From NCBI RefSeq assembly GCF_020422885.1, contig NZ_CP084622.1, forward strand, positions 792,001-856,000: 64,000 nucleotides of DNA, in the 5' to 3' direction. This document shows, one piece after another, positions 18,537-23,166 of the stretch. Both the position numbers and the translations under genes were made by a program. The notes below the pieces were generated by a model. The model was given only the letters and a program-made list of their open reading frames with translations, was not told where the DNA came from and did no database searches. Origin of the DNA: Mesobacillus sp. S13. GTDB lineage: Bacteria; Bacillota; Bacilli; Bacillales; Cytobacillaceae. The stretch's first letter is position 1. The number at the start of each line of letters is the position of its first letter.

Positions 18537-19400
18537 TTAGACGAAATAGAACACAAATCCAGATACAGTGGACATCGTGATGACAGAAGCGATGAAGGCA
18601 ATCACGAGCTGCTTTTTGAAGATTGATTTTAACAAGATGACTTCCGGCAAGCTGGCGCCGGCTGAGCTGATCATCATCGCCATCACGGGACCAAGGGCCA
18701 TTCCTTTTAGAATCAGCATTTGCGAAATCGGAATCATGCTAGAAAGGCGGATGTACAAAGGAATCCCGGCGATTGCCGCTACTGGGATCAGCCACCATGC
18801 ATCATGCCCGAACCATTTCGTAATGATTTCTGTTGGAACAAGGCCATGAATGACCGCGCCAATCGCAGCACCTATCAGCAAGTAAGGGTAGACACTTTTC
18901 ATCAGCGACCAGGTTTCTTCTAAGGCAAATCTCCAATTGAATTTCTGATTTTTTTCTTCGTATCCAGACATGATGACATTTTTGACGTAGCGCTGGAATC
19001 CCAGCTTATCGAGTGTAAAGCCAATGACAATCGAGAAAACACTTGTGATGATGGTGTAAATGATGGTAACTTTCCAACCCATCACGACACCCATGATCGT
19101 TAAAATCGTTGGGTCCAGCACCGGAGAAGCGAAGAGGAAAACCATGACGATTGAAAAAGGGATTTTCTTTTTCAGCATATTGACGACTACTGGAATCGTG
19201 GAGCAGGAGCAAAAAGGTGTGATAAACGCAAACAGAATGGCGGCAAAGCTGGCAAGCAATTTATTGCGTCCTGTCAGTTTCTTTTCGATTTTTTCATAAG
19301 GAATATATCCCTGGAGCAAGCTGATCAGAAAGGAAATCCCGATAAAAAGCACCGTTAACTCTAGAGCTATCCATAAAAAGCTTTTTAGAAATTCAATCAT
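18537..19400 (-). CDS. DUF318/ArsP-type permease
   Basis: 287-residue membrane protein with about eight hydrophobic helices. The hallmark FITPFCSCSTIPVV (~62-75) carries the conserved Cys-X-Cys of the permease family that includes ArsP (organoarsenical efflux) and YraQ. A second conserved loop AGIPLYIRLSSMIPISQMLI is near the C-terminus. It sits between two Cys-containing small proteins and downstream of ArsR-type operators, so a metalloid or organoarsenical efflux role is likely; the substrate is not proven. Confidence 0.82.
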   Translation of the reverse strand: MIEFLKSFLWIALELTVLFIGISFLISLLQGYIPYEKIEKKLTGRNKLLASFAAILFAFITPFCSCSTIPVVVNMLKKKIPFSIVMVFLFASPVLDPTILTIMGVVMGWKVTIIYTIITSVFSIVIGFTLDKLGFQRYVKNVIMSGYEEKNQKFNWRFALEETWSLMKSVYPYLLIGAAIGAVIHGLVPTEIITKWFGHDAWWLIPVAAIAGIPLYIRLSSMIPISQMLILKGMALGPVMAMMISSAGASLPEVILLKSIFKKQLVIAFIASVITMSTVSGFVFYFV

Positions 19401-19423: not shown

Positions 19424-19594
19424 TTAGCAACTAGCTGGAATTGGACAGCATTTAGGCTGCTGAGTTTGTTTACGGGCGATTGCAGGGGTTCGCTTCGTTT
19501 CCGGCTGTTCAAAAAACTTCCATGCGTGTCTAGCTTTCCTTTCAACGTCTTGCTGTTTTAACTGTGCAAATGCTTGATAATCGTGATAAAACAT
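19424..19594 (-). CDS. Small protein with Cys-rich C-terminus (metalloid operon)
   Basis: 56 residues: a helical, basic N-terminal part (QAFAQLKQQDVERKARHAWK) and a C-terminal tail KCCPIPASC with three Cys. I chose ATG 19594, preceded on the minus strand by AAGGAGAGG, over an upstream in-frame start. First gene of the operator-controlled permease operon, 23 bp before the permease. The tail may bind the metalloid and deliver it to the permease. No family recognised. Confidence 0.65.
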   Translation of the reverse strand: MFYHDYQAFAQLKQQDVERKARHAWKFFEQPETKRTPAIARKQTQQPKCCPIPASC

Positions 19595-19610
19595 GTATAT
19601 CCTCTCCTTA

Positions 19611-19648
19611 ATCAAAATATATTGATTTATTAATCAAAAAAAATTGAT
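19611..19648 (-). promoter_or_regulatory. Two ArsR-type operators before the permease operon
   Basis: ATCAA-N6-TTGAT occurs twice (19611-19626 and 19633-19648), centres 22 bp apart, i.e. on the same helix face. The same palindrome appears twice upstream of the neighbouring minus-strand arsR. Confidence 0.72.
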
Positions 19649-19743: not shown

Positions 19744-20103
19744 TTAACAACAGTTGCTAGGTCTGAAAAGGCAGCAAAGCTCTGGAGATAATAGATGGTT
19801 GATTTCTTCGGTGTTTACTGTGTAGTAGCTCCAGGTTCCCTTCGTTTCTTTCTGGATCAGATTGGCATCAAGCAAAATTTTCAGATGATACGATAATTTT
19901 GATTGGGGCATGTCAATCAGTTCACTTAGATCGCAAACGCAGCTGGAGTCTTGCTGGCAAAGAAGATTGAGGATGTGCAGGCGTTTTTGGTCGGCAAGGG
20001 CTTTGAATTTCTTTTCGTATTTTTCAAAAGTGCTTTGAAGCGGCGGTTCCTTGGCTGCTTTAGTGTCAGTTGTCAGGTCTGTTAAAGGAATGAATTTTTC
20101 CAC
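19744..20103 (-). CDS. ArsR/SmtB-family metalloregulator (minus arm)
   Basis: 119 residues, winged HTH (~30-105). The metal-sensing motif CVCDL at the start of the recognition region is typical of arsenite-responsive ArsR. The C-terminal tail has a CC pair (ELCCLF) and a terminal CC, extra thiols not usual in the family. It would repress the permease operon and itself through ATCAA-N6-TTGAT sites, and release DNA on binding As(III) or Sb(III). Confidence 0.85.
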   Translation of the reverse strand: MEKFIPLTDLTTDTKAAKEPPLQSTFEKYEKKFKALADQKRLHILNLLCQQDSSCVCDLSELIDMPQSKLSYHLKILLDANLIQKETKGTWSYYTVNTEEINHLLSPELCCLFRPSNCC

Positions 20104-20309: not shown

Positions 20310-20654
20310 TTGATAAAACAAACTATTGAAATGGATCAGGCTGCTGCAGTACTTAAGCTGCTTGGTGATAAGACGCGTTTGACGATGATGAGAATTCTTG
20401 CGGACCACGATTGCTGTGTCTGTGAGTTTGTAGCGATTTTCGAAGCCAGCCAGCCGGCGATCAGCCAGCATATCCGCAAGCTGAAGGATGCAGGTCTGGT
20501 AAAAGAGAGCAGGAGGGGGCAGTGGGTATTTTATTCACTGAACGTGCAGTATGAGCATTTTGAATTTGTTCAATTGCTCTTGGAGGCACTGCCAAGCCAG
20601 GAAGAAAAATTAACAGAACTTGAAAAGCAGGGAAAACGGATTTCCTGTGAATAA
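20310..20654 (+). CDS. arsR: ArsR-family arsenical resistance repressor (plus arm)
   Basis: 114 residues. Winged HTH with KLLGDKTRLTMMRIL, the thiol motif CCVCEFV (~35-41) as metal sensor, and the recognition helix SQPAISQHIRKLK. TTG start with GGAGGTGGAGGG upstream. First gene of arsR-arsB-arsC; its own promoter carries the embedded palindrome. Confidence 0.88.
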   Translation: MIKQTIEMDQAAAVLKLLGDKTRLTMMRILADHDCCVCEFVAIFEASQPAISQHIRKLKDAGLVKESRRGQWVFYSLNVQYEHFEFVQLLLEALPSQEEKLTELEKQGKRISCE

Positions 20655-20663
20655 CGGAGGTGT

Positions 20664-21965
20664 GTGGATTTGTCTTTACCGATTATCGCTTCACTGATTT
20701 TTCTTGTGACGCTGACACTGGTCATCTGGCAGCCTAAAGGGCTGAGCATTGGCTATTCAGCAGTTGGTGGAGCTGTTTTAGCATTGATTTTTGGGGTGGT
20801 CGATTTCCAGGACGTGGTTGATGTGACTAGTATCGTCTGGAACGCAACCCTTACATTTGTCGCACTAATTATCATTTCACTTATTTTGGATGAAATCGGA
20901 TTTTTCGAATGGTCCGCCTTACATATGGCACGGGCCGCAAAGGGTAACGGAGTTAAGATGTTCATATATGTCACCTTGCTTGGTGCAGCGGTAGCGGCAT
21001 TGTTCGCAAACGATGGAGCTGCACTGATTTTGACACCAATCGTGCTGGCGATGGTACGCAATCTTAAGTTCGAGGAAAAAATGGTTTTTCCTTTTATCAT
21101 CGCGAGCGGGTTCATTGCCGATACGACATCACTTCCACTGATTGTCAGTAACCTTGTCAATATCGTATCTGCCGACTTCTTCGATATTGGGTTCGTCGAA
21201 TATGCATCCCGCATGATCGTGCCGAACTTTTTCTCATTAGGTGCAAGTATTTTGGTGTTGTATTTATTTTTCAAAAAGAGCATTCCGAAGAACTATGATA
21301 TGTCTAATTTGAAAAAGCCGGCTGAAGCGATCAAGGATATGAAGATGTTCCGCTTATCTTGGATTGTGTTGGGAGTCCTGCTTGTTGGTTACTTCGGAAG
21401 TGAATTCCTGAACATTCCGGTATCTTTCATTGCCGGTATTGTCGCGATTTTCTTCTTGTTGATGGCAAGGAAAAGCCCAGCTGTTCATACGACCACCGTT
21501 GTAAAAGGCGCACCATGGGCGATTGTGTTCTTCTCGATTGGGATGTATGTGGTCGTTTACGGTCTCCGTAACGCTGGTTTGACGAACGTTCTTGCGGATG
21601 TCATTCAGGCAGCGGCTGATCAGGGATTATTTGTCGCAACGATTGGAATGGGCTTCATTGCCGCGGTTCTTTCTTCAATCATGAACAATATGCCAACTGT
21701 CATGATTGATGCACTAGCGATTGCGGATACTAACACAACAGGTGTTGTTCGAGAAGCACTGATTTATGCAAATGTCATCGGATCTGATTTAGGTCCGAAG
21801 ATCACGCCAATTGGATCACTGGCAACACTATTATGGCTTCACGTTCTTTCATTGAAAGGTGTCAAGATTTCTTGGGGCACTTATTTTAAAACAGGAATCA
21901 TTCTAACCATTCCTACTCTATTCATCACTTTGGTAGGTCTATATATTTGGTTGCTAATTATCTAA
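20664..21965 (+). CDS. arsB: Arsenite/antimonite efflux pump ArsB
   Basis: 433-residue, about 12-segment membrane transporter that expels As(III) using the proton gradient. Family landmarks are [41 protein letters not shown] and [22 protein letters not shown] start with GGAGG three bases upstream. Lies nine bases after arsR. Confidence 0.93.
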
Positions 21966-21983: not shown

Positions 21984-22403
21984 ATGGCTAAAAAAACAAT
22001 CTACTTCTTATGTACTGGAAACTCTTGCAGAAGCCAAATGGCTGAAGGATGGGCAAAAAAATATCTTGGAGACGAGTGGGAAGTAAAGAGTGCAGGTCTT
22101 GAAGCGCACGGCTTGAATCCTAACGCTATAAAGGCGATGAATGAGGTCGGAATCAATATCACTGGCCACACATCAGATGTCATCGATCCGGAAATCCTGA
22201 ACAATTCAGAGCTTGTCGTCACACTGTGCGGGCACGCAGACGAGCATTGCCCTGTAACACCTCCACATGTGAAACGCGAACACTGGGGCTTTGACGACCC
22301 GGCAAAAGCTGAGGGAACAGAAGAAGAAAAGTGGGCCGTGTTCCAGCGCGTCCGCGACCAGATCAGCGACAGAATCAAGACTTTTGCTGAAACAGGAAAA
22401 TAA
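21984..22403 (+). CDS. arsC: Arsenate reductase, thioredoxin-coupled
   Basis: 139 residues of the low-molecular-weight-phosphatase-like ArsC type (as in S. aureus pI258 and B. subtilis). The P-loop CTGNSCR has nucleophile Cys10. The redox relay Cys82 and Cys89 are in LCGHADEHC. Reduces arsenate to arsenite for export by ArsB. GGGAGCG before ATG; a small terminator follows. Confidence 0.94.
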
Positions 22404-22409
22404 TTCGAA

Positions 22410-22435
22410 GCCAAGGGGAAACTCTTGGCCTTTTT
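22410..22435 (+). terminator. Terminator or attenuator after arsC
   Basis: 6-bp stem GCCAAG / CTTGGC followed by TTTTT. Weak enough to allow read-through into the phosphatase and HesB genes, which lack an obvious promoter of their own. Confidence 0.6.
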
Positions 22436-22452: not shown

Positions 22453-22881
22453 ATGAGCAAGAACTATCAGGCTCTGATTTCAGGCAGGATTTTTATCGGA
22501 GGCGAAAATGCGATCCCCGAACTGCTTGAGAATGAAAAAATCGATATGGTTTATGACCTTCGTGCGGAAAACAAAGAGGGGGATTTTGAGTATCCTCGAA
22601 CCCATTTGCCGATGTATGATGACGATTCCCAGCAGGATGAGTCGGTCAAAAAGGCTCTGGATGAGGTAGCAGCGGCATATGATTCTGGAAAAAACATTTA
22701 CTTCCACTGTTCAACAGGCAGAACCCGGACAGGCACGCTGGCAGCTGGAACTTTGCTAAAGCTGAATGAAGCAAATAGCATTGAGGAAGCAAAGACAAAA
22801 GCAAGGGAAGTCCGCGAAGTGCTGAATCTTGATTCAAAATTGATTACATCTCTTGAAAGGATTTTTCCTGAAAAGAAATGA
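22453..22881 (+). CDS. Dual-specificity/tyrosine phosphatase-like protein in the arsenic operon
   Basis: 142 residues with the Cys-phosphatase loop HCSTGRTRTG (Cys86, Arg92, CX5R) and a general-acid candidate in the MYDDDSQQD loop (~54-62). Similar to bacterial DSP-type phosphatases. Good RBS (AAAGGAGGAG). It follows arsC and overlaps the HesB-like gene by 4 bp, so it is part of the metalloid operon. Whether it dephosphorylates a protein or handles arsenate or an arseno-metabolite is open. Confidence 0.78.
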   Translation: MSKNYQALISGRIFIGGENAIPELLENEKIDMVYDLRAENKEGDFEYPRTHLPMYDDDSQQDESVKKALDEVAAAYDSGKNIYFHCSTGRTRTGTLAAGTLLKLNEANSIEEAKTKAREVREVLNLDSKLITSLERIFPEKK

Positions 22882-23135
22882 AAATTACAAAGCGAGCACG
22901 CGAAAAATTAATGAATGACCAGATACCTGGTATCCGGCTATATTTCGCCGGCATTAGCTGAAGGAGCTCCAAGATTGGACTGGCTCTGGATGAGCCGGAG
23001 GAAGATGATGAAATCATGCTGGTCTATGGAATCAAAGTTGCTGTTGATCCTTCGATTGAATATGAAGTAAAAGATTTGACGATAGATTTTAATAATGATT
23101 TTATTTTAACAAGAAGCAATAGAGAATCATGCTAG
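22878..23135 (+). CDS. HesB/IscA-like selenoprotein (in-frame UGA read as selenocysteine)
   Basis: 85 codons from ATG 22878 (overlapping the phosphatase TGA as ATGA) to TAG 23133-23135, with a single in-frame TGA at codon 28 (22959-22961). The translation is coherent on both sides: GIRLYFAGIS before it and KIGLALDEPEEDDE, then YGIKVAVDP, after it. This is the pattern of the HesB-like (seleno)protein family (TIGR01911), in which the UGA aligns with the conserved first Cys. A Cys remains at the C-terminus (RESC). A hairpin with a G-containing loop lies ~25 nt downstream of the UGA. Alternative: a pseudogene with a point stop, but the reading frame is otherwise undamaged. Confidence 0.75.
22980..22998 (+). 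promoter_or_regulatory. Candidate bacterial SECIS hairpin
   Basis: CTGGCTC (22980-22986) pairs with GAGCCGG (22992-22998), seven pairs including one U-G, loop UGGAU. The loop starts 25 nt after the UGA and has G at its second position, agreeing with the general rules described for bacterial SECIS elements bound by SelB. Confidence 0.5.
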
Positions 23136-23137
23136 AG

Positions 23138-23166
23138 CAGCCACAAACTATTTCGTGGCTGTTTTT
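23138..23166 (+). terminator. Terminator of the arsenic/HesB operon
   Basis: 7-bp stem CAGCCAC / GTGGCTG, 10-base loop, followed by TTTTT. It ends the plus-strand metalloid operon three bases after the HesB-like stop codon. Confidence 0.85.

Follow-up and report, generated by a model that had tools for sequence, protein, structure and literature searches.

HesB-like selenoproteins form an established family (PMC13188914, PMC9312934, PMC1794560, PMC1242214; available portions of each) and already appear in genome surveys from 2005 and 2006 (PMC1242214, PMC1794560). A methanogen member was identified via mutagenesis and 75Se labelling, and the available part of a 2024 paper calls its function "not clear" (PMC11097638). 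HesB-like genes also occur in arsenic resistance (ars) operons: as described in the available sections of PMC4562236, the ars1 operon of Bacillus sp. CDB3 reads arsRYCDATorf7orf8, where the HesB-like orf7 adjoins the DSP gene orf8 (studied by Zheng et al. 2013 and Bhat et al. 2011, as cited there). According to the same sections, orf8 raised arsenate resistance in Escherichia coli and did not substitute for arsC, and a hairpin between arsC and arsD attenuates the long transcript; the words "seleno" and "UGA" are absent from them. The available text of PMC8779447 lists hesB among the ars operon genes of Exiguobacterium. A HesB-like ars gene (CDB3 orf7) is already known, then, and a selenocysteine (Sec) version in an ars operon is unreported in the literature searched, where no report joined a HesB-like selenoprotein with ars operons (most subscription journals lay outside the search). 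Here, we describe such a gene, very probably an intact selenoprotein gene that seems broken by a stop codon, at the end of an ars operon in Mesobacillus sp. S13. The window is the whole 64,000-nucleotide (nt) stretch that was analyzed (contig NZ_CP084622.1, positions 792,001 to 856,000), and coordinates are those of the window unless a contig (C1) is named. The features of the gene are as follows.

22878..23135, + strand: hesB-like selenoprotein gene, 85 codons and a TAG stop, with UGA predicted to be read as Sec
22959..22961, + strand: UGA (Sec28), codon 28, aligning with the Cys conserved in IscA-type proteins
22980..22998, + strand: predicted bacterial selenocysteine insertion sequence (SECIS) hairpin, 7 bp, loop UGGAU (22987-22991)
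23130..23132, + strand: codon of the C-terminal Cys85, a conserved partner residue

A sequence-only reading of the window, made by a model without database searches, had proposed one UGA at codon 28 of an 85-codon frame that overlaps a phosphatase gene as ATGA; this was confirmed, with the frame at 22878-23135 and the UGA at 22959-22961. The translation is MKITKRAREKLMNDQIPGIRLYFAGIS-U-RSSKIGLALDEPEEDDEIMLVYGIKVAVDPSIEYEVKDLTIDFNNDFILTRSNRESC, and the ATGA at 22878-22881 joins the stop of the phosphatase gene (dsp) to the hesB start. GIRLYFAGIS stands immediately before the UGA, as had been read; the residues immediately after it are RSSKIGLALDEPEEDDE, and three residues separate the UGA from the KIGLALDEPEEDDE given for that place. 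Under translation table 11, no open reading frame (ORF) of 60 or more amino acids is listed for this frame, as would be expected if translation ended at the UGA and the frame were a pseudogene or encoded a 27-residue peptide; one relative has UAA at this codon, which fits the same idea. The conservation of the frame past the UGA, the SECIS hairpin, the sel genes, and the UGA/Cys alternation all speak against it.

The genome (4.8 Mb, one contig) was searched for selA, selB, selD, and tRNA-Sec, the absence of which would have undone the sequence-only reading, and all were present. The tRNA-Sec model scored 67.1 bits (gathering score, 47), ARAGORN called a SeC tRNA with anticodon tca, and SelB (364 bits), SelA (562 bits), and SelD (395 bits) were above their cut-offs; the selD gene itself holds one in-frame TGA (C1:2577893-2578819). 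Two more HesB-like genes with in-frame UGA lie in the same genome (C1:4089722-4089994 and C1:2558200-2558466).

A search of the genus returned a match in 20 of 21 genomes, with exactly one TGA in 41 of the 42 matches listed and, in the remaining one, no stop and Cys at the Sec position. Among 80 named loci of the genome collection (the best 80 of 127, found with a query alignment of mainly ars-operon copies), the codon was TGA in 79 and TAA in 1 (Bacillus sp. V3-13). At the family level, 165 of 193 genomes matched; among the matches listed, four were without a stop and one had TAA. For eight close orthologues, the ratio of nonsynonymous to synonymous variation (pN/pS) was 0.23 over the 47 codons after the UGA and 0.04 over the ten codons before it, and by this measure the codons beyond the UGA are under purifying selection. 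SelA was above cut-off in 172 of the 193 family genomes, and 7 of the 21 SelA-less genomes had a strong match (E ≤ 5.7e-24). All 7 carry Cys at the Sec position, with arsA close by in each, either adjoining hesB or with dsp (sometimes trxB) between. G052, a genome with SelA, carries a Cys copy that lacks SECIS and has no ars neighbors in the fetched stretch. In these genome comparisons the UGA/Cys alternation tracks the presence of the Sec machinery, against which stand TGA frames in three SelA-less genomes (below). In place of the random stop or frameshift in close relatives that would have refuted the sequence-only reading, UGA and Cys were found to alternate, with one UAA in 80 loci. That UAA locus (L124, Bacillus sp. 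V3-13) keeps the hairpin core, the rest of the frame, and the ars context intact, and represents a recent null or something odder; L085 and L180 are probably the same record.

The 7-bp hairpin with loop UGGAU, placed earlier at about 19 nt downstream, was recovered by RNA folding at 22980-22998 (CUGGCUC/UGGAU/GAGCCGG), separated from the UGA by 18 nt and within the minimum-energy fold (23-nt piece, −12.2 kcal/mol, shuffle z −4.3; 47-nt piece, z −1.8). In bacteria, SECIS elements are hairpins that follow shortly after the UGA and have a G close to the loop start, and this hairpin agrees in position and in that G. Conservation was scored over 85 UGA rows (83 distinct; the UAA locus excluded). 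Codons +7 to +11 were CTG (79 of 83 rows with that residue), GCT (82/82), CTG (83/83), GAT (82/82), and GAG (80/82), while equally conserved residues further downstream (e.g., Val +26 and Ala +27) vary freely in synonymous codons. Standard pairs filled 572 of 581 cells in the 83 distinct rows, against 84 to 256 in slid controls, and all 7 pairs were present in 74 of these rows; in 2000 synonymous resamplings, such rows numbered 0.54 on average and 4 at most. In one locus (L117), three stem pairs are altered on both sides, with three amino acids altered along with them. When 17 UGA loci from other Bacillota families were added, all but one of the seven pairs showed changes on both sides; in 93 distinct rows, 634 of 651 cells paired (slid controls, 95 to 285). 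The UGGA[U/C] loop occurs in 17 of 27 loci of those other families, a count that is not independent because these 17 were chosen by loop; the other 10, which do not match the loop pattern, were left out of the covariation count. In Cys forms, the hairpin was gone in 14 of 14 checked (1 to 4 of 7 pairs left; UGGA loop kept in one). Across these alignments the hairpin is kept at synonymous sites far beyond chance.

Two points weigh against Sec decoding. The tRNA-Sec model passed its cut-off in 5 of 14 well-known control genomes and is thus weak proof alone (SelB passed in 2, SelA in 1, and SelD in 2), with ARAGORN concurring in the present case; and three genomes without SelA above cut-off (G171, G175, and the 81%-complete G179) keep TGA in weaker HesB-like frames. 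One of the two TGA frames of G171 looks decayed at its start, and the remaining TGA frames of SelA-less genomes (including L198 in G175 and L202 in G171) belong to another HesB type. With all of this considered, the comparative evidence makes it almost certain that the frame is decoded as a selenoprotein, UGA28 being read as Sec via SelB and tRNA-Sec with the aid of the 22980-22998 hairpin. A plain stop or pseudogene is highly improbable and was rejected on the selection past the UGA, the SECIS hairpin, and the UGA/Cys alternation.

The predicted structure of the protein is IscA-like, and Sec28 aligns at the conserved first Cys of that fold, in line with the earlier proposal that Sec takes the place of a cluster- or metal-binding Cys. 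The proposed match to TIGR01911 held for the UGA at the conserved Cys and failed for the family score and the UxGP motif. The protein scored 31.4 bits (curated cut-off, 66.35), none of 11 relatives scored was above the cut-off (best, 64.7), and NF038090 (IscA_HesB_Se) gave 36.8 bits (curated cut-off, 85); the UxGP motif, as described in the available part of PMC13188914, is replaced by URSS. With scores below both cut-offs and without UxGP, the protein was filed as a divergent subfamily and not as a formal member. It shares with the family (TIGR01911/NF038090) the IscA-like fold, the placing of Sec at that conserved Cys, and the UGGA[U/C] SECIS loop (seen in the 17 loci chosen by loop), and differs from it in both scores, in URSS for UxGP, and in its ars-operon setting, which is unmentioned in the available text of the literature on the family. 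Sequence comparison places the gene with the HesB-like selenoproteins as a divergent variant found in ars operons. A Pfam SeleniumBinding hit (E 0.1; 13.3 of 27.9 bits) was judged to be chance.

IscA and SufA have three conserved Cys, with a C-terminal CxC. The window protein, about 20% identical to E. coli IscA/SufA (1s98, 1r94, 1x0g, and 2d2a), has Sec for the first Cys and a single terminal Cys in place of CxC, leaving Sec28 and Cys85 as its only soft ligands. Cys85 is invariant in a 15-row alignment (A1) and at least 90% conserved in a 46-row alignment (A2), and relatives often have two adjacent C-terminal Cys. Membership among plain IscA/SufA carriers was ruled out by the missing three-Cys pattern and by TIGR00049 (A-type Fe-S carrier; 20.6 bits, curated cut-off 58.8). 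As a function, carrier work was retained as a rival: the protein would carry iron or iron-sulfur clusters and rebuild those damaged by arsenic, with Sec as cluster ligand. Fold and sequence kinship with IscA/SufA favor such a carrier; the single C-terminal Cys, the TIGR00049 score, a separate A-type carrier above that cut-off at C1:4023729, and the ars neighborhood make it unlikely.

The operon that ends in hesB consists of the following features.

20310..20654, + strand: arsR, ArsR/SmtB repressor, above NCBIfam cut-off
20664..21965, + strand: arsB, arsenite efflux transporter, above NCBIfam cut-off
21984..22403, + strand: arsC, thioredoxin-type arsenate reductase, above NCBIfam cut-off
22410..22429, + strand: terminator-like hairpin with T run in the arsC-dsp gap, possible attenuator
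22453..22881, + strand: DSP-type phosphatase gene (dsp), above Pfam DSPc cut-off
23138..23166, + strand: terminator-like hairpin with T run directly behind the hesB stop, fold z −5.2

The upstream arsR-arsB-arsC was thus named correctly from the letters alone, and the order is arsR-arsB-arsC-dsp-hesB with hesB last. The hairpin and T run at 23138-23166, not listed by a terminator pattern scan with a loop limit of 8, make the end of the frame the apparent end of the operon. The scan gave 2 sites of the 22410-22429 type, no excess over shuffles; this hairpin resembles the attenuating arsC-arsD hairpin in the available description of CDB3 ars1 (PMC4562236). As in the ars operon of Bacillus sp. 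CDB3, a HesB-like gene lies beside a DSP phosphatase gene (orf7 compared by its published description), and unlike the window operon, ars1 as described there has arsD, arsA, and arsT. Neither arsD nor arsA was present in the window operon, and a genome-wide search for ArsA found none above cut-off.

Three of four genus subtypes are ars-borne. Type A, the window type, reads arsR-arsB-arsC-dsp-hesB in the window and in 8 of 8 fetched genus relatives. In type B, about 2 kb separate arsR-arsB-arsC from dsp-hesB (6/6 fetched); in L060 this gap contains arsD and a broken arsA frame, and arsD-arsA is seen in named loci. Type C has arsR-arsB-arsC, a gap, and then hesB-dsp, with arsA before and trxB after (3/3 fetched), and arsD plus arsA in the gap of L066. 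The fourth type is close to the classic HesB selenoprotein, and neither of its two fetched stretches contained an ars gene. In Mesobacillus selenatarsenatis SF-1, the type B copy (L104/L036) has a frame disrupted before the UGA, by mutation or assembly error, and a second copy of type C (L142) is intact.

In the fetched flanks of the 80 named loci, at least one of arsA, arsB, arsC, and arsD was found in 50 and at least two in 43; because of the composition of the query, 50/80 is too high as a figure for HesB-like selenoproteins in general. On a tree of 88 rows (L124 and L104 left out, the latter for its disrupted 5' part), the ars label requires 14 changes, compared with 26.7 for shuffled labels, so that the link is clustered yet gained or lost several times; the tree rests on few columns and leaves many forks open. 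Plasmid contexts (5 of 14 matching records) showed, within ars operons, Cys forms from Niallia, Priestia, Sporosarcina, and Alicyclobacillus, annotated as "iron-sulfur cluster biosynthesis family protein" or "adhesin", and, in Cytobacillus firmus, a UGA form with TGA and hairpin verified and no gene listed there (gene table incomplete). A sample of 398 Bacillota genomes, of which 85 matched, added one Cys locus of the same order beside arsA. By gene neighborhood, the hesB-ars link is recurrent in Bacillaceae and not a single coincidence. Of the metalloid-linked role proposed from the window alone, the linkage thus stood; the biochemical role remains an inference.

The most likely function, offered tentatively on comparative grounds, is binding of trivalent As or Sb at the former iron/cluster pocket. 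The IscA pocket would have been turned into a site where As(III) or Sb(III) is bound by selenolate and thiolate: Sec28 and the C-terminal Cys85 would act as soft ligands, shield cell thiols from As(III), and hand it on to the efflux pump ArsB. Conserved soft ligands, ars linkage, a genome without ArsA above cut-off, and the separate A-type carrier were counted for such a site. The explanation as a whole, an IscA/HesB-fold Sec protein as the last ars-operon product that binds As(III)/Sb(III), is plausible without being probable. With more reserve, the protein may be a Sec metallochaperone of As(III)/Sb(III) that hands As(III) to the efflux pump ArsB in operons without ArsD/ArsA. ArsD, an arsenite metallochaperone, is presumably comparable as a small ars-operon protein with conserved soft ligands, a likeness of function only, with no kinship claimed; hesB and arsD stand together in many relatives, so hesB is not simply an ArsD replacement.

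Several points weigh against As(III)/Sb(III) binding. As(III) usually prefers three ligands, and the window protein has just two soft ligands; the last three residues of the predicted model have a predicted local distance difference test score (pLDDT) below 50, which leaves the Sec28-Cys85 geometry undefined by the model. No ars gene was found nearby in 30 of the 80 loci, some with short flanks. In other Bacillota families, a search with Bacillaceae ars proteins, which distant ars genes may escape, found none within about 1.5 kb of 27 loci (26 with UGA and 1 without a stop). Arsenic is thus an unlikely role for the whole HesB-like selenoprotein family, and on these 27 loci ars linkage as a family-wide trait was rejected.

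The neighbors also bear on a redox function, in which a Sec28-Cys85 selenenyl-sulfide, cycled by thioredoxin/thioredoxin reductase, would serve as reductant for ArsC or the neighboring phosphatase or repair thiols oxidized under arsenic stress. We consider this rather doubtful: trxB (>60% identity to reference copies) is present in the fetched flanks of 9 and dsp in those of 27 of the 80 loci, two plasmids have the order trxB-dsp-hesB, and thiol oxidoreductase likeness is common to many selenoproteins (PMC13188914, available part), but the fold is that of IscA rather than thioredoxin, and neither trxB nor dsp accompanies hesB in many ars operons. The dsp count likewise weakens the idea that the protein serves solely as a partner of the phosphatase.

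Upstream lies a divergent ars unit.

18537..19400, − strand: ArsP_1-family permease (Pfam)
19744..20103, − strand: second arsR (NCBIfam)

Between them, ORF 19424-19615 (− strand; 63 residues, ending CCPIPASC) had no match in NCBIfam or Pfam, has copies of 63 to 83% identity in 11 of 20 fetched relative stretches, and is possibly a metalloid-binding peptide.

As the Cytobacillus firmus plasmid (one UGA record) illustrates, part of an ars operon can be lost from view in gene calling. The occurrence of the same gene beside ars genes in many related bacteria ties a selenoprotein of unclear role to arsenic. Its recurrent ars place in Bacillaceae, with Sec where it can be decoded and Cys in the SelA-less strong matches, makes that role testable by growth on arsenic, and, if true, As(III)/Sb(III) chaperoning would explain what one branch or more of this family does.
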